Positions 29,957 to 39,398 of a stretch of DNA of 64,000 nt are shown piece by piece (positions within the stretch are counted from its first letter, which is position 1; the number at the start of each line of letters is the position of its first letter). The stretch is from the NCBI GenBank assembly GCA_963678705.1, contig OY783210.1:19593331-19657330 (forward strand). Reading direction: 5' to 3'. The notes beneath the pieces are model-generated. The model was given only the letters and a program-made list of their open reading frames with translations. It searched no databases and had not been told where the DNA came from. Source of the stretch: Panorpa germanica (taxonomy: Eukaryota > Arthropoda > Insecta > Mecoptera > Panorpidae). A program made the translations under genes and the position numbers.

Positions 29957-29961
29957 CTCTG

Positions 29962-30420
29962 TGTTCCGTCCTATATACGAGTAGCAATACACATAAGTTT
30001 TGTAATTTTAATTTTGTTTTGTTGTTAGAATAGTCAATTGATTATAAATTTTTATTCATTCTTAGACCCGGCTTGTGCTGGTTATTTTACAATTTTGATT
30101 CCATTGTTTTTATGTTTATTTTATAATTTTGACTCCATTGTACTTATGTTTTATTTTATAATTTTGATTTCATTGTACTCATGTTCTATTTAAATTAACT
30201 GTTAACTTAACTATTATATTTAAGGAAAAGGTTCATTCATTCGTTCGTATTCATTCGTTTAGCTCAGTTGCTTGTAGTTGATAGTTCTCAATAAATCACT
30301 TTAATTTTAAACGAAAAAATATTCGTGGTTTTCTTCACATAATTCGACATCATCGCACAATATCACACCATCATACATCCTCGCATCATAAATCGCGGTA
30401 AACTAATCGCGATTCAAACA
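29962..30420 (+). repeat. Bel-1 5' LTR
   Basis: The 459-bp LTR has TG...CA ends. It contains three diverged short direct repeats (attttataattttgactccattgta type) and an AATAAA at 30290-30295. I compared it base by base with 34557-35015 and saw no difference. Confidence 0.95.
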
Positions 30421-30421
30421 T

Positions 30422-30433
30422 TGGTCCTTCGAT
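30422..30433 (+). other. Bel-1 primer-binding site, probably tRNA-Tyr
   Basis: TGGTCCTTCGAT starts one base after the 5' LTR. TGG pairs with the tRNA CCA end. The following TCCTTCGA is complementary to the acceptor end (TCGAAGGA) of insect tRNA-Tyr as I know it. The match weakens after about 11 bases. Confidence 0.65.
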
Positions 30434-30582
30434 AGCCAGATAGTGAACAGTGAACCGTGATAGTAATCAGTTCATTTGTGTTACCTGCAATTGCGCAGTC
30501 ATTATCAATAACTACAACAAGTGTGTATTCTCGTGAGCAGAATAATCAGGTAGTAGAAATAACTCTATCAATCGCCAGCAAT

Positions 30583-31575
30583 CAGCGTTGGCATTATAGA
30601 ACAGCGCTGGATCATCACGCATCCAGCCTATTATTCGCCACCAATCAGCGTGGAATAATCTACAAGCGTTGGATCACATATATCCAGCCTATTATTCGCC
30701 ACCAATCAGCGTGGGATAATCTACAAGCATTGGATCATATATCCAGTCTATTATTCGCCACCAATCAGCGTGGGCATAATCTACAAGTGCTGAGATCATA
30801 CATATCCAGCCTATTATTCGCCACCAATCAGCGTGGAATCATCTACAAGCGTTGGATCACATATATCCAGTCTATTATTCGCCACCAATCAGCGTGGGAT
30901 AATCTACAAGCGTTGGATCATATATATCCAGCCTATTATTCGCCACCAATCAGCGTGGGCATAATCTACAAGTGCTGAGATCATACATATCCAGTCTATT
31001 ATTCGCCACCAATCAGCGTGGGATAATCTACAACCGCTGGATCATCACGCATCCTGCCTATTATTCGCCACCAATCAGCGTGGAATAATCTACAAGCGTT
31101 GGATCATATATATCCAGCCTATTATTCGCCACCAATCAGCGTGGATAATCTACAAGCGTTGGATCATATATATCCAGCCTATTATTCGCCATCAATCGGC
31201 ATGGCATAATCTAGAAGCGTTGTGATCATTAAGCATCCAGCCTATTATTCGCCACCAATCAGCGTGGGATAATCTACAAGCGTTGGATCATATATATCCA
31301 GTCTATTATTCGCCACCAATCAGCGTGGGCATAATCTACAAGCGTTGGATCATATATATCCAGCCTATTATTCGCCACCAATCAGCGTGGGATAATCTAC
31401 AAGCGTTGGATCATATATATCCAGCCTATTATTCGCCACCAATCAGCGTGGGTATAATCTACAAGCGTTGGATCATCACGCATCCAGCCTATTATTCGCC
31501 ACGAATCAGCGTAGGCATTATAGAACAGCGCTGGATCATCACGCATCCAGCCTATTATTCGTCATCAATCGTCAT
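30583..31575 (+). repeat. Bel-1 leader minisatellite, about 16 units of 59-63 bp
   Basis: Units repeat the core tattattcgccaccaatcag, then cgtggnataatctacaagcg, then a short inverted repeat TGGAT...ATCCA. The ~61-bp period is not a multiple of three, so the open frames through it (30457-30978 and 31283-31666) are by-products, not likely genes. The first and last units share a variant (cattatagaacagcgctgg) that inner units lack. Confidence 0.93.
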
Positions 31576-31906
31576 TTGCAACATTGGAAACTATTCATCT
31601 TGTGAGAAACAACTACATCAATTGTGTGCAATCAAACATTTTTTATGCAAAGAATTATACAAATAGCACATCATCATTTGTATAATCATAACCGGAGTGA
31701 CGTTCTTCATTGAAACTTCAAATCGTCTTCACTGCGGATACAGAACAATACATCGACGTGATCAAGTAAGTCAGGTGATTCACCAATAATCCTTGGCAAC
31801 TCATTTAATTCCGAACAATTACTCCTCCTATTTTCCCAATTCGCCAATTATCCTAGCATTTGGTCGTACATATTTTTACTTTTAACAAAATTCCCATTAT
31901 TTAATA

Positions 31907-34519
31907 ATGGCTGAAGGGCAAGTTAGACTTTTAAAGATCAAACGCGCGACTGCAAAACGAGCTCTAACATCATTCGTGAACCTTCTTAATAATGATTCGG
32001 AAGAGTATTCTTGTATGTTAAAAAGTATATACGACGAGATAAAGCAAACGCGTGAAAAATTATTAGCATATCAAGACGAGATAGACTTATTGGTAGCGGA
32101 TGAGGAAGGATGTGTTCCGGAGGAACAGTATCAATATAGGGATGAGTTTGAGGATCAGTATTGGAAAGCATGCGATAAGGCCACTAAAATTTTAGATTCG
32201 CGAAAAACAAATTCTCCCAACCCATCTGGTTCTAGGGTATCCACTGCTAGTAGTATTATGGGAACACCGGTATTATCAACGTATAATCAAGGCCTAGAAT
32301 CATTGAGCAACAGTCCTCAGACCCAAAATCAATTGAATAGTTCACCACCCGTGCATAGTAATCAATTAGCCGGGCACATTGATACACCTACATCACCTGC
32401 TAATGATATTGATACAGAATCAGTATCTCACTCGGAGATACCTGAATTTAACCACAACTTACAGACTCGCATACCTGTCGAAACCTTATTAGCTACTGCC
32501 ATAGTGGATCTTACAAATCCGGAAGGTATCGCAGAAACTCATAACAAGGTTGCTTCAGACGTTGGCTCTCAGGATCGTTCTACAACTGAAGTCACGGCTA
32601 AGGTTTTAAGGCCTGACCGAACTGAAGTTACCATTTCGGTCAGCGGCAATAATATAAAATATAGCACTCCTGCTGCTATAAAATCATTAGGTAATAGACC
32701 TCCATTTTTCGACAACTCACTTGAGTTTTATTTTGATCAAGAATCGCTACGGTTCAAGCGCTGCATCACGGTAGCCGAACCCAAAAATATTCCTTTACAT
32801 AATATTTGTGATACAGGCCAGAAAGCATATGGCGCCTGTAGTTACCTACGATCTGTAGATAAACATGATAAGGTTCGTGGTCATTTAATTTGTTCCAAAT
32901 CTCGTGTGGCTCCCGTGAGCTCCATTTCATTACAGCGTCTAGCGCTCCGCGACGCCCTTCTGTTTGCTCGATTTTTTACCGTAAAAATCACGCTATTAAA
33001 TACTAGTGACTACCTTGTCTTGCGGTGTAATTCTACTCTAGGATTACATTGGTTCAAAACTTATCTACATCGCACACAACCATTTGGTAATAAACACGTC
33101 GCCAAACTACAGCGACTAACCGCCACGTGTCCTTGTCAACACGTTGCGTCACTCAACAAACCCGCGAATCTAGACTCTCGCGGTCTGTTTCATTCGGAAT
33201 ATATTGCAGGAAAACTATGGCGGCATAAACCTCCGTGGCTATTAAGGCCTCAGAGTCCATGGCCCAAAACAATTTTATCGAGCATTGAGATTCCTGCTTT
33301 AAAAACATACGAACTTCCTAATTCCAACTACTTAAAGGTACAATCGCGAGTATTAGAGCCACTTGAAAAATATTCTGCGCTGGGCAAACCTACCCGTATT
33401 GTTACATACCTCAATCATGTCATTAATAATCCTCGATGCTTTAATTCACAGCGAACTAATAGCTTTTTATCGTTTTCGGGAAAGGTAACAGTCCGCGATA
33501 CTATTATTAAAATAATACAATTAACAGCATTTTCAGCGAAAATAAATCAATTACGCAAGGGGATTCATGAAAACAGTCGTTTAATGCCGATTAACCTGTG
33601 TCTCGATGCTACCGGTATTATTCGTGTAGGTGGCAAATTTACTCTCGCTTACTTACCTGATATTCAGCATTCCCATATACATATTTATTCATATACTATC
33701 AAGCGAACTATTATACGGCAGGAGCATGTTCAGCTCAATCATGCCGGTATTCAAACAACTGTATATTCCGTGCGTCAAACTCCTTGGCCTCAGGACCGTC
33801 GTAGCATTACGCGAAAAATCATACACCAATGTGTGATCTGTTTTCGAGCCAAGCCTCGTCTCACACACCACATTATGGGAGATCCTCCGCCATACCGATT
33901 AACACAAACCTGTCCGTTGCTTCGCGTCGGGTTCAAACATACTAAATCGTTGCATATTATAAAAAGACGACATCGTCATCGTCAGAGCTTAAGTGTTTAT
34001 AGGGCAAATCACGAACTCAATGAAGCGCATTTTAAGAAACACTTGACGCTCACCCTAGGTACTACTCATTTTCCGTATGAGCCATTAAATACTTATGCAG
34101 TTGAGATCCAAGCCATATTAAATTCTCGTTCCATATGTCCCTTGGCTCCTGACCCGCATAATATTGTTCCTTTTACACCATACCATTTTCCTATTGGTGG
34201 TCCACTGACAAGCTTTCCTCAAACTGATTGGACTAGCACCAGCTCCAGCTCCAGCCAGATGCCTGTTTTTCAACACGCACAGCAGATCACGCAACATTTT
34301 TGGAAGCAGTGGTACCTTTGTCAATTAATTACGCGGTCATCTCAGCAATGGAAATCACCGAATCTAACGGTCGGCAAACTACTCTTGATTGGAGAAGACA
34401 CACCTCCTCTCCTTCAATGGCTGCTAGGACGTGTAATTAAAATTCATGCAAAATATATGCTGCAACACTTAAACTGCTTCAATGGGAAATTGCATCGCAA
34501 CAAAGGACTCCACAAATAA
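31907..34519 (+). CDS. Bel-1 fused Gag-Pol remnant protein, 870 aa
   Basis: This is one uninterrupted frame starting MAEGQVRLLK. Residues ~1-100 are a charged coiled Gag N-terminus of Bel/Pao type. ~100-260 is a Ser/Thr/Asn-rich linker. ~290-405 resembles the RNaseH part of Bel Pol (CDTGQKAYGACSYLR, SKSRVAP). ~595-655 is an integrase zinc domain with His607, His612, Cys642 and Cys645. ~705-770 (NEAHFKKHL, EIQAILNSR) is the tail of the integrase core. ~780-855 matches the DUF5641-like C terminus (TQHFWKQW, LLGRVIKIH). The aspartic protease, RT palm, DUF1759 region and most of the integrase core are missing. A normal Bel polyprotein is about twice as long. The pieces are joined in frame without a stop. 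No catalytic activity is expected; a structural or packaging role is possible but inferred. Confidence 0.88.
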   Translation: MAEGQVRLLKIKRATAKRALTSFVNLLNNDSEEYSCMLKSIYDEIKQTREKLLAYQDEIDLLVADEEGCVPEEQYQYRDEFEDQYWKACDKATKILDSRKTNSPNPSGSRVSTASSIMGTPVLSTYNQGLESLSNSPQTQNQLNSSPPVHSNQLAGHIDTPTSPANDIDTESVSHSEIPEFNHNLQTRIPVETLLATAIVDLTNPEGIAETHNKVASDVGSQDRSTTEVTAKVLRPDRTEVTISVSGNNIKYSTPAAIKSLGNRPPFFDNSLEFYFDQESLRFKRCITVAEPKNIPLHNICDTGQKAYGACSYLRSVDKHDKVRGHLICSKSRVAPVSSISLQRLALRDALLFARFFTVKITLLNTSDYLVLRCNSTLGLHWFKTYLHRTQPFGNKHVAKLQRLTATCPCQHVASLNKPANLDSRGLFHSEYIAGKLWRHKPPWLLRPQSPWPKTILSSIEIPALKTYELPNSNYLKVQSRVLEPLEKYSALGKPTRIVTYLNHVINNPRCFNSQRTNSFLSFSGKVTVRDTIIKIIQLTAFSAKINQLRKGIHENSRLMPINLCLDATGIIRVGGKFTLAYLPDIQHSHIHIYSYTIKRTIIRQEHVQLNHAGIQTTVYSVRQTPWPQDRRSITRKIIHQCVICFRAKPRLTHHIMGDPPPYRLTQTCPLLRVGFKHTKSLHIIKRRHRHRQSLSVYRANHELNEAHFKKHLTLTLGTTHFPYEPLNTYAVEIQAILNSRSICPLAPDPHNIVPFTPYHFPIGGPLTSFPQTDWTSTSSSSSQMPVFQHAQQITQHFWKQWYLCQLITRSSQQWKSPNLTVGKLLLIGEDTPPLLQWLLGRVIKIHAKYMLQHLNCFNGKLHRNKGLHK

Positions 34520-34544
34520 TAAACTTTGAACTACAGATAGTTCA

Positions 34545-34552
34545 AGGCGGGC
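34545..34552 (+). other. Bel-1 candidate polypurine tract
   Basis: The short purine-rich run aaggcggg lies just upstream of the 3' LTR, where plus-strand DNA priming would occur. It is short, so the call is tentative. Confidence 0.45.
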
Positions 34553-34556
34553 TGTA

Positions 34557-35015
34557 TGTTCCGTCCTATATACGAGTAGCAATACACATAAGTTTTGTAA
34601 TTTTAATTTTGTTTTGTTGTTAGAATAGTCAATTGATTATAAATTTTTATTCATTCTTAGACCCGGCTTGTGCTGGTTATTTTACAATTTTGATTCCATT
34701 GTTTTTATGTTTATTTTATAATTTTGACTCCATTGTACTTATGTTTTATTTTATAATTTTGATTTCATTGTACTCATGTTCTATTTAAATTAACTGTTAA
34801 CTTAACTATTATATTTAAGGAAAAGGTTCATTCATTCGTTCGTATTCATTCGTTTAGCTCAGTTGCTTGTAGTTGATAGTTCTCAATAAATCACTTTAAT
34901 TTTAAACGAAAAAATATTCGTGGTTTTCTTCACATAATTCGACATCATCGCACAATATCACACCATCATACATCCTCGCATCATAAATCGCGGTAAACTA
35001 ATCGCGATTCAAACA
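34557..35015 (+). repeat. Bel-1 3' LTR
   Basis: Partner of the 5' LTR, preceded by the purine-rich aaggcggg, a candidate polypurine tract. An AATAAA at 34885-34890 would serve 3'-end formation. The TSD ctctg follows at 35016-35020. Confidence 0.95.
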
Positions 35016-35238
35016 CTCTGCTTGTATTATATGGTACAAGTATATTATATACTCGTAATACGAAACACAAACTTTTTTCATAAATATTTTTTAAAACGCA
35101 AATATTATTCATAGAAAAACTATAGTCATGCAGTCAGCCAGTGTACGATGACGGAATTCAAAACAAAAGTTCAAAGTTTAATAAACATTACTAGGAATAC
35201 GTTCTGATAGTAAATTTCTTTTTTATATATAAAACATC

Positions 35239-36072: not shown

Positions 36073-36380
36073 TGTTCAGTACAAAATTAGCACAGAACAT
36101 AAGATGTCTCTGTTGGCATTCCAACATTATAATACATTGTTGTCTCTAATAGAAGTAATGCGCATGACAGCAATACGATGACTGCTGTGTACGACACGGC
36201 CGTATGGCAATCAGGTCAGTTGTGTTTTGGGCTTCTACACTGTCAAGATCATAATTCCCAACCATCTTGTTATTATAAGAATGTTGGTTCAAAGTAATTA
36301 AAAAGTGTAAAATTATTTTATCATTAAACAATTGAATAATTATTCAATCTACAAATACTCGCATGGTTTTATTTCGTACA
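36073..36380 (+). repeat. Bel-2 5' LTR
   Basis: The 308-bp LTR has TG...CA ends and is identical by eye to 39091-39398. It contains an 18-bp perfect palindrome at 36331-36348. No AATAAA was seen. Confidence 0.94.
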
Positions 36381-37060
36381 TGCGAAGCTGGTCCTTCGAT
36401 GCCTTACAAAGCCGATCCTTCGAGTTTATTATCCGCGTGTGTTTTACATTGTGTTTTTGGCGTTTTTTTACATTTGCCCCTTGGTGATTGCCATTGAATG
36501 GGTAATTGGGACGCTCTATTTTGGCGGATTCACGGAGGATTTGGATTTTACAACTACATTTCAAGAAGGTTTTAATTCGTAAATGCGAAGCTGGTCCTTC
36601 GATGCCTTACAAAGCCGATCCTTCGAGTTTATTAACCGCGTGTGTTTTTCATTGTATTTTTGGCGTTTTATTACATTTGCCCCTTGGCGATTGCCATTGA
36701 TTGGGTAAATGGGACGCTCTATTTTGGCGGATTCACGGAGGATTTGGATATTTTACAATTACATTTCCAGAAGCCTTACAAGCGAAGCTGGATATTTTAC
36801 AATTACATTTCAAGAAGGTTTTAAATCCTACAAAAAAAAAACTGGCCTTACAAGCCATTGGTACCCGCGTGTGATTTCGTGGTGTTTTGAGGTTACATCT
36901 GTATAGTAACCAGCACAAGTGCAAGCTATTTTGTTACATTTACCCTATGGCGGCCTGGCAAGTCATCAATTGCCATTGATTGGGTAATGCAACGTTTGAT
37001 TTAAGCGGATTCGCATATAATTTGGATTACTACACGTTTATATTTTAAGAAAAATTATTC
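36381..37060 (+). repeat. Bel-2 leader repeats, three units of about 200 bp
   Basis: Units begin near 36381 and 36584 (period 203 bp), and a third, diverged unit runs from about 36840. Shared blocks include ggcggattcacggaggattt and gattgccattga. The second unit also has a short internal duplication (cgaagctgg...atttcaagaaggtttt). Small open frames here are by-products of the repeats. Confidence 0.85.
36389..36400 (+). other. Bel-2 primer-binding site, probably tRNA-Tyr
   Basis: TGGTCCTTCGAT is found eight bases after the 5' LTR, the same 12 bases as in Bel-1. A second copy lies at 36592-36603 inside the next leader repeat. Confidence 0.6.
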
Positions 37061-37249
37061 ATTACGGAAGAGGATACATGGATGCTGGAGGAGAGTAAAA
37101 TACTTCTTTACTCATGAAGGTACAAAGTTATTATTACTATCTGCAAGTACCAATCTATTAAAAACTTCTCATGTTGCTGGATTAACCTGGATTAGTTTGT
37201 CATCCACGTTTCATCTATCATATAAGTACGAATCTATCACCTAAGCAAG

Positions 37250-38935
37250 ATGGAGGGATTGAAAAGGCTTAGATCGGCGCGGACGGCTGCAAAAAGTGCA
37301 ATATCACGGATGGACAATTACGTCAGCGACCCAAGGGCTCTCGACTCCGCTACAGTGGAGGTGCTGCAGGTGAAAAAAGAAAAGATGATGACTACATTCC
37401 AATCGTACGAGCTCACGCAGTACAGCATTTTAGAAATTGATGATCAAGATGAGGAAGACATTGAAGAAGTTGAAGAGAAGTATTTTAACATTATTGCAAA
37501 ATTAAATGCTAGCATCAATAAGTTAAAAGAAGTTAATAGGCCTGAATTAGTTCCATTGAAGCTCCCAGCGGTGGAAATTCCAACTTTCGATGGCAAGGAT
37601 ATAACCAGGTTTAAGCCCTTTTATGAGCTCTTCCAAGCAGTGGTTCACAATAATGCATCATTGTCCGATGTTCAAAGACTTTTTTATTTGAGAAAGTATC
37701 TCGTTGATGAGGCTCTCTCAATAATTATAAATCTGCCGCTTGTGAACAGTTCATACAAAGAGGCTATTGATTTATTGTTAGCACGGTATGAAAATAAGGC
37801 AAGATTAATCTTTTATCACATTAATATACTACTTGATATTCCCAACATGCAGAAAGGTACTGCAGTCGATATAAGGGCTTTTTTATGTCAAGTAAAACAG
37901 CAATTACAAGCGTTAAAAAATCTTGATGAGCCTGTAGACAAGTGGGATATGATCTTAATCTCGGCCTTAAGTAGAAAATTAGATATCGTTACTAACCGCA
38001 CTTTCCACATGGAAAGAAATTTAGAAGAACTGCCTACTATGGCAGAATTTATTTCATTTTTAGAAAGACGTGCAATTGCAATTGAGTATAGTTTAGATTA
38101 TAAAAATATGTCACATGACAATAATAATAATAAAGGAAATGTGGTTCCAAGAAAATTGTATAATAAAAATAAGTATTCACATAATAATATTGTATGTAAT
38201 CTTGCTATTTGTGAATATACAAACCTTAAAAATGTTATGGAACAATCTTGGACAACTGAGAAAGTCCCAGAGGAATCAGATAAGTTTTCTGAGGATTACT
38301 TAAAGGCTGAACATAAATTTCAGAATTCAGTAGCACTTAAAAATAATTTAACTGTTGATTTGCCATTACTCAGCCTAGTAAATAAAATAGAATTGGAGGA
38401 TTCTTTCTCAGTTGCCCCGCAAAGATTTAATGTGTTGGAAAAAAGATTTAGACACAATCCTTCATTATTGGAGGTTTATAAAACATTATTAAACAGATCA
38501 ACCAGTATTATGACATTAGGTTTAAAACACAATATTATTTTTATAAATATTAAAATAAAAACAAATTTAATTTGCTACAAGTCCAGTGTAGCTCCATCAA
38601 GTAAGGTACTTACAATACCCCAGCTTGAGATTATTAGCGCAGTGTTGCTGGTGCGAATCAAACAAGCAACAAATAAAATTTTTGATTCAAATACAATACT
38701 TCCATCAGATATTAATTGCAATGTTTACAACATTGATGTAAAACAAACATCTGTACTGTTGGAATTGTTAAAAGATAATTGTTTCAATAACATTGTAACT
38801 ATTGAGTTGATGATTGTTGTGTACATTATGCAATTGATAATGTATGCTACATTGATAATTATGGTTTCTGTTATATTTAGGATAGTAATTAATTTGTTTT
38901 ATATTATTTTCACAAAATTATGTAGACTACCATAG
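37250..38935 (+). CDS. Bel-2 fused Gag-Pol remnant protein, 561 aa
   Basis: The frame starts MEGLKRLRSARTA. Residues ~1-100 are a charged coiled region. ~103-280 match the DUF1759 Gag domain of Bel/Pao elements (LPAVEIPTFDGKDITRFKPF, FYLRKYL). ~280-330 are Asn/Lys-rich where a protease would normally follow. ~345-415 match the Pol segment just before RT (LEKRFRHNPSL). ~437-470 match the RNaseH-linked block (ICYKSSVAPSSKVLTIPQLE). The last ~50 residues are hydrophobic and match nothing I know. The RT core is gone between ~415 and ~437, as are protease and integrase. Intact Bel polyproteins are about three times longer. The frame is unbroken, and the matching LTRs indicate recent transposition with help in trans. 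Confidence 0.87.
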   Translation: MEGLKRLRSARTAAKSAISRMDNYVSDPRALDSATVEVLQVKKEKMMTTFQSYELTQYSILEIDDQDEEDIEEVEEKYFNIIAKLNASINKLKEVNRPELVPLKLPAVEIPTFDGKDITRFKPFYELFQAVVHNNASLSDVQRLFYLRKYLVDEALSIIINLPLVNSSYKEAIDLLLARYENKARLIFYHINILLDIPNMQKGTAVDIRAFLCQVKQQLQALKNLDEPVDKWDMILISALSRKLDIVTNRTFHMERNLEELPTMAEFISFLERRAIAIEYSLDYKNMSHDNNNNKGNVVPRKLYNKNKYSHNNIVCNLAICEYTNLKNVMEQSWTTEKVPEESDKFSEDYLKAEHKFQNSVALKNNLTVDLPLLSLVNKIELEDSFSVAPQRFNVLEKRFRHNPSLLEVYKTLLNRSTSIMTLGLKHNIIFINIKIKTNLICYKSSVAPSSKVLTIPQLEIISAVLLVRIKQATNKIFDSNTILPSDINCNVYNIDVKQTSVLLELLKDNCFNNIVTIELMIVVYIMQLIMYATLIIMVSVIFRIVINLFYIIFTKLCRLP

Positions 38936-39090
38936 AGTTAAGAAGTTTATGTTATTTTGTGTAATTTTGTTTATAATAGTTTTAAGAAGTTCACATTATT
39001 TTTTGTAATTTGGTTTATAATAATTTTATGTAACATTGTATAATTTGATATTGGTTGTGAGCTTATCTATTTCTGCTGGCCGGCAATTTA

Positions 39091-39398
39091 TGTTCAGTAC
39101 AAAATTAGCACAGAACATAAGATGTCTCTGTTGGCATTCCAACATTATAATACATTGTTGTCTCTAATAGAAGTAATGCGCATGACAGCAATACGATGAC
39201 TGCTGTGTACGACACGGCCGTATGGCAATCAGGTCAGTTGTGTTTTGGGCTTCTACACTGTCAAGATCATAATTCCCAACCATCTTGTTATTATAAGAAT
39301 GTTGGTTCAAAGTAATTAAAAAGTGTAAAATTATTTTATCATTAAACAATTGAATAATTATTCAATCTACAAATACTCGCATGGTTTTATTTCGTACA
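39091..39398 (+). repeat. Bel-2 3' LTR
   Basis: Partner of the 5' LTR; the TSD aagag follows. The palindrome is repeated at 39349-39366. The bases just before it (ggccggcaattta) are a poor polypurine tract. Confidence 0.94.

Follow-up and report, generated by a model that had tools for sequence, protein, structure and literature searches.

Domain content of the Bel-1 frame

Why should a retrotransposon that has lost most of the enzymes for its own movement keep a frame of 870 codons open? The question is raised by Bel-1, an insertion of 5 kb (positions 29962-35015, flanked by a 5-bp target-site duplication [TSD]) in a 64,000-nucleotide stretch of Panorpa germanica DNA, here called the window. 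The first-pass annotation had noted an ORF of 870 codons without a stop, identical LTRs, and several in-frame deletions, and had proposed that the remnant protein or the ORF length is retained for mobilization in trans, as opposed to random decay. The stop-free ORF of 870 amino acids (31907-34519, plus strand) and the identity of the LTRs (459 bp each, TSD CTCTG) are borne out. The element is laid out as follows.

29957..29961 (+), 5' TSD, CTCTG, which flanks both element ends
29962..30420 (+), 5' LTR of 459 bp, TGTTCC...CAAACA, identical to the 3' LTR
30421..30440 (+), primer binding site region, TGGTCCTTCGA then TAGCC; the TGGTCCTTCGA form is found in 18 of 20 copies
30565..31570 (+), leader tandem array, 16 copies of ~61-bp units, nearly without ATG
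31907..32377 (+), codons 1-157, Gag N-terminal module, 95% amino acid identity to parent-type copy L040
32378..32728 (+), codons 158-274, post-zinc-knuckle region leading into a degenerate N-terminal part of the protease (SDVGSQ motif by eye)
32741..34006 (+), codons 279-700, RNase H region plus what is left of the integrase zinc-binding part, 59% amino acid identity to parent-type copy L029
34007..34030 (+), codons 701-708, place where the integrase core was deleted in frame, leaving a short piece with ELNE
34031..34519 (+), codons 709-870 plus stop, end of the integrase and remnant of DUF5641
34557..35015 (+), 3' LTR of 459 bp, preceded by CAAGGCGGGCTGTA
35016..35020 (+), 3' TSD, CTCTG

Pfam identified Peptidase_A17 (residues 276-359, partial), Integrase_H2C2 (599-651), and DUF5641 (788-848) in the ORF, and the coding pieces show homology to Bel/Pao elements through these three families. 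No Pfam match to a reverse transcriptase (RT) domain was found in the 870 residues, and comparison with parent-type copies agrees with the annotated absence of RT. The protease, annotated as absent, is not wholly so: its N-terminal part persists, with LDAGSQ changed to SDVGSQ as judged by eye, and the rest is deleted. The RNase H block is present as annotated, but three of the four residues that we take to be catalytic are altered (D, E, D, and D, now D, A, N, and N). The integrase core is gone, 8 codons standing in place of 102 in L029, with the H2C2 residues kept. Because its own RT and integrase core are missing and its protease is only partial, Bel-1 is a non-autonomous Bel/Pao derivative, not an autonomous member.

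A young family of insertions

A search of the insect's own genome with the 870-residue protein returned at least 65 matches (52 of 2,071 first-look candidates were scored), among which 20 full-length copies (residues 1-870, 93 to 100% identity) are listed, including the window copy, L009. Since the match list extends down to 47% identity, the set of close copies is probably complete. The sibling count suggested in the annotation thus gives 20 full-length copies of the same structure and not a single copy. The ORF is stop-free in 19 of them, L027 having two stops. A solo chance ORF was rejected on copy number and domain content, because recurrence of an 870-codon frame in 19 of 20 full-length copies, together with the protein family matches, makes it untenable.

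The LTR pairs differ by 0 to 6 substitutions each (17 in total over the 20 copies); 12 pairs have no substitution, three of these being gapped, and 18 differ by no more than two, the L023 pair having been compared over part of the LTR. Exact 5-bp TSDs, each different, flank 18 of the 20 copies; that of L027 shares only 4 bp (TTGC, offset by one), and that of L023 was not determined. The ORFs of five of the 19 other copies are only 1 to 3 changes away from that of the window copy. Many insertions with common deletions, TSDs, and near-identical LTR pairs make Bel-1 a young non-autonomous family, which would have been moved by enzymes made elsewhere.

Damaged copies exist as well. L038, a 21st insertion (TSD GTATC), is frameshifted by a deletion around codons 727 to 780; L039 has lost its interior, roughly codons 170 to 831, and carries stops; and a fragment beside L021 (residues 594-870) has two stops. 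Four older Bel-1-like matches lie about 5.5 to 6.1 kb apart at G000:C5:16250795-16269534 and look like a tandem segmental duplication that carries one decayed copy. A second non-autonomous Bel element, Bel-2, is located at 36073-39398 of the window, with identical 308-bp LTRs and the TSD AAGAG. Its ORF (37250-38935, 561 amino acids) encodes a Gag DUF1759 domain and a small A17 piece, and the best 78 of 2,668 genome candidates, those scored, are all full length, 99 to 100% identical, and stop-free.

Parent-type copies and in-frame deletions

Two parent-type copies, both damaged, allow the missing parts to be traced. In L040, the gag-protease-RT-RNase H frame is open over 1,390 amino acids, and the copy is truncated before its integrase end. 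L029 shows Pfam matches to DUF1759, RVT_1, A17, H2C2, and DUF5641, while its zinc knuckles, protease, and integrase core were assigned by visual inspection; an ORF on the opposite strand, which reads as Helitron-like (without a database match), splits L029, and this copy has further lesions. Both share with Bel-1 the domain order and 91 to 94% nucleotide identity across the leader end and the Gag N terminus, whereas the L029 LTR is only about 80% similar to that of Bel-1, and the ~61-bp leader array was found in neither (the unit has no match in L040 and only a 10-base match in L029).

Relative to these copies, Bel-1 lacks three regions. Directly after codon 157, Bel-1 has lost 858 nt (286 codons) relative to L040, the part with the capsid and zinc knuckles, and resumes at codon 158; between codons 274 and 279, 12 nt replace 1,497 nt of L040, the rest of the protease plus RT; and between codons 700 and 709, 8 codons replace the 102 codons of the L029 integrase core, where the retained ELNE fragment means that the region may comprise two deletions. 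All three preserve the reading frame, with exact edges that hinge on the alignment. Bel-1 is thus a Bel/Pao element whose longer gag-pol was reduced by three regions of in-frame deletion, in agreement with the several in-frame deletions of the annotation.

The intact parent for which the annotation proposed to search was not found. Among 178 LTR candidates, the 40 scored were all in non-autonomous copies (19 of the 20 fetched copies plus L038 and L039, solo LTRs outside this list being uncounted), and no intact parent with a matching LTR was among them. A search with the L029 RT gave at least 109 matches (108 of 1,540 candidates scored). Of those listed, 22 show 85 to 100% identity; 12 of the 22 have stops, and 5 span residues 2 to 381 stop-free. 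The remaining listed matches show 40 to 46% identity, many with long frames that stay open over as much as 1,767 amino acids. Neither the LTR search (40/178 scored) nor the RT search (108/1,540) revealed a closely related intact helper; machinery as such is plentiful in the genome, given the many RT matches with long open frames.

Stops are avoided while amino acids drift

ORF variants were sorted into silent, missense, and nonsense changes and set against the proportions expected if base changes of the observed classes fell on the ORF; the variants are not fully independent events. In the 18 youngest copies (LTR pairs differing by no more than 2 substitutions, a cutoff chosen after the copies had been viewed), 151 distinct variants comprise 110 missense, 41 silent, and 0 nonsense changes, where 105.1, 37.9, and 8.0 are expected (omega, 0.97, interval 0.69-1.40; stop deficit, P = 0.00023). 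All 20 copies give 172 variants, with 125 missense, 45 silent, and 2 nonsense changes against 119.6, 43.1, and 9.3 expected (omega, 1.00 [0.73-1.44]; stops, P = 0.0038); both nonsense variants belong to L027. Variants common to two or more of the 20 copies (n = 95) include no stop where 5.3 are expected (P = 0.0039), and the 77 singletons include 2 where 4.0 are expected (P = 0.23). An apparent stop at codon 583 was reclassified, being a multi-hit codon with no stop in its carriers.

Indels follow the same pattern. The ORF has four, each of 6 nt, beside 169 substitutions; the 3' LTR has twelve, ten of them not multiples of three, beside 57 substitutions. Frame-breaking indels therefore number 0 beside 169 in the ORF and 10 beside 57 in the LTR (Fisher P = 2e-6), the LTR being an imperfect control because repeats may raise its indel count. 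In the leader, the first 140 nt has two indel patterns beside 5 substitutions, and the last 330 nt has none beside 12 substitutions.

Omega was controlled by applying the identical class-matched count to parent-type pairs. L029-L040 gives 0.45 (gag) and 0.47 (pol), L029-L030 gives 0.45, and four pairs involving the damaged L031 or L032 give 0.73 to 0.91; nine other Bel-1 copies, each compared with L009 across codons 158 to 870, give 0.67 to 1.20. Simple pairwise omega is 0.30 to 0.34 in the less damaged parent pairs and from 0.55 up within Bel-1. Parent-type values differ from those of Bel-1 only to a moderate degree, and a mild protein constraint on Bel-1 may exist.

Five older relatives extend the comparison. 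Over the whole alignment, L033, L034, L035, L036, and L037 carry 0, 4, 9, 1, and 4 stops where 6.4, 13.4, 14.5, 6.8, and 21.8 are expected (18 against 62.9 in sum), these alignments having been built from local matches, which may favor stop-poor pieces. Over codons 158 to 870, nonsense changes number 0, 4, 9, 1, and 3 against 5.3, 7.7, 9.5, 5.7, and 15.0, which places L035 at the neutral stop rate and the other four below it. The older relatives also carry frameshifts.

The counts lean toward a frame that is kept while its amino acids drift at or near the neutral rate. As dN/dS among copies is about 1, the family gives no clear sign that the remnant protein is conserved. The annotated claim of retention over random decay consequently stands for the frame, in which stops and frameshifts are significantly depleted, while no such signal is seen for the remnant protein (omega 0.97, 0.69-1.40); the annotation had named both the remnant protein and the ORF length as what might be kept, and the evidence tilts toward the frame. 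The annotation would have recognized a chance deletion product by sibling copies with dN/dS near 1 and full of stops; the former is found, yet stops are nearly absent.

Exchange of 5' gag modules

Codons 1 to 157 behave differently from the rest of the frame. Their variation is low (6 of the 151 variants; P = 4e-7), with 11 missense changes to 1 silent change within the family, whereas the comparison with L040 gives 11 silent and 8 missense changes (omega, 0.18; dS, 0.12). The low omega against L040 may stem from the autonomous lineage. As dS against L040 is 0.63 in codons 279 to 579, the 5' module would have been swapped with the autonomous lineage after the pol remnant had diverged.

Other relatives carry other 5' ends. 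L033 and L036 have about 96 capsid codons, by eye close to those of L040, that are followed in frame by the point at which Bel-1 resumes, TSPANDID; the stretch in L033 contains one stop. L034, L035, and L037 have a different Gag N terminus (dS of 0.45 to 0.49 from L009); a single match continues in frame over codon 157 in each of L034 and L037, and L035 shifts frame near codon 150. Different 5' gag modules thus sit in frame on one pol remnant. Among the 20 copies, the four-gamete test fails for 1,612 of 3,570 informative ORF site pairs (4% of pairs less than 50 nt apart and 55% of pairs beyond 600 nt). By this test Bel-1 copies recombine by mosaic exchange, and failure rising with distance is what template switching between copackaged RNAs would be expected to produce.

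Leader and primer site

The leader is 992 to 1,793 nt long over the 20 copies; that of the window copy, 1,486 nt and mostly ~61-bp array, contains 2 ATGs where about 30 are expected. Because the array is repetitive, the 470 nt of nonrepeat leader provides a fairer figure: 1 ATG against 9.5 (P = 0.0003-0.001; three copies tested). The LTRs of the same three copies have 3 to 4 against 6.6 to 7.3 expected, and the Bel-2 leader, for comparison, has 11 in 869 nt (no expectation computed).

Just 3' of the 5' LTR, L016 and L019 have a primer site unlike that of the other 18 copies, TGGTCCTTCGAGCCGGATA, presumably the 3' end of tRNA-Tyr; it looks as if copied directly from the 3' end of a tRNA, a possible footprint of reverse transcription. 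The primer-tRNA 15-mer has 363 genome matches against 0 for the reversed control, and no tRNA gene was found at the first four loci (ARAGORN, bacterial setting).

What keeps the frame open

We consider it probable, from these patterns and by analogy with known elements, that translation of each Bel-1 RNA aids its own mobilization in cis, the RNA being moved by the proteins of relatives. Autonomous Bel/Pao relatives would supply the proteins that reverse-transcribe and integrate it, and each RNA would itself serve as template for a fusion of Gag and pol fragments that has no catalytic activity. Translation in cis would make an RNA with a through-running frame more stable, better packaged, or both, by ribosome passage, by escape from nonsense-mediated decay, or by a nascent Gag N terminus guiding its own RNA to helper particles; copies with a broken frame would rarely leave offspring. 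We infer the trans-mobilization with its helper, the translation, and the cis step alike. A protein acting in trans would not protect the frame of the copy encoding it, and selection copy by copy would therefore point to cis. The ATG-poor leader fits this reading; weighing against it are the moderate parent control, the neutral stop rate of L035, the broken frames of L027 and L038, and the lack of indels in the last 330 nt of the leader. A narrower version, which we offer tentatively, is selection on translatability as such, that is, on a frame readable from end to end with almost any amino acids. Ribosome passage (or decay escape) would then serve as the signal in cis, and each successive deletion or exchange of the 5' gag module would be tolerated only if in frame.

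The near-identical LTR pairs, the five copies within 1 to 3 ORF changes of the window copy, and omega of about 1 are what a recent burst from one or a few stop-free masters would leave, with an ORF that has no role and too little time for stops to arise; this is unlikely, since the 172 variants over 20 copies would then include about 9.3 stops instead of 2 (P = 0.0038), ORF indels are all in frame while LTR indels mostly are not, and four of the five older relatives are also short of stops in codons 158 to 870. It is likewise unlikely that the fusion protein has a role of its own, in trans or within the particle (such as that of a Gag-fragment partner or competitor of helper Gag), with selection on some residues only: codons 1 to 157 are kept relative to L040 (omega 0.18) and vary little (6/151), and some between-group pairs show omega of 0.67 to 0.79, but codons 158 to 870 have omega of 0.94 (0.66-1.37; 145 of the 151 variants in the 18 youngest copies) and nonetheless avoid stops (0 against 7.85 expected; P = 0.0003), and such a function would not hold each copy's frame open. 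That the constraint lies in the RNA only, for instance, in a packaging or dimerization signal inside the ORF, with the open frame as a by-product, is very improbable. Silent and missense variation are both low in codons 1 to 157 and the nonrepeat leader varies little, as an RNA signal would predict, yet it gives no account of missing stops and frameshifts from codon 158 onward, where substitutions are common and the stop deficit lies.

Comparison with known systems

Plant non-autonomous LTR elements of the TR-GAG and BARE-2 type have incomplete coding capacity. Bel-1 differs from them in lacking the capsid and zinc knuckles and in keeping pol fragments, and Bel-2 is nearer the TR-GAG layout. 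Cattle ERVK[2-1-LTR] D-type elements, MusD/ETn, and KoRVA/RecKoRV are described as trans-complemented defective morphs that keep LTRs and flanking coding pieces, for which the authors suspect cis effects (PMC10924933). In that report, the cattle insertion in APOB lacks a full-length ORF (PMC10924933), whereas the Bel-1 frame is wholly open. A literature search with partial coverage of subscription papers found no comparable Bel/Pao case.

Saito 2008 is reportedly the primary source on the mouse IAP I-delta-1 element. According to two reports, a 1.9-kb deletion in I-delta-1 created a gag-pol fusion ORF; the element requires gag and pol in trans, is reported to act in cis in favor of its own retrotransposition, and is the origin of most new IAP insertions (PMC6466679, PMC7411935). 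By this analogy, the cis-translation rule may hold in Bel/Pao. If confirmed, a rule of a mouse endogenous retrovirus (ERV) would extend to an unrelated retrotransposon group, and a nonsense deficit combined with near-neutral missense change would become a sequence test usable on any non-autonomous family. Bel-1 separates the keeping of a protein from the keeping of a readable frame, which are usually confounded in parasitic elements. As far as those reports describe I-delta-1, the two systems share an open gag-pol fusion frame that arose by internal deletion and is kept in active copies, although IAP is a mouse ERV with one deletion and Bel-1 a Bel/Pao element with three deletion regions. Unlike I-delta-1 as so described, Bel-1 has a tandem-repeat leader, exchanged 5' modules, and an open frame with drifting amino acids.
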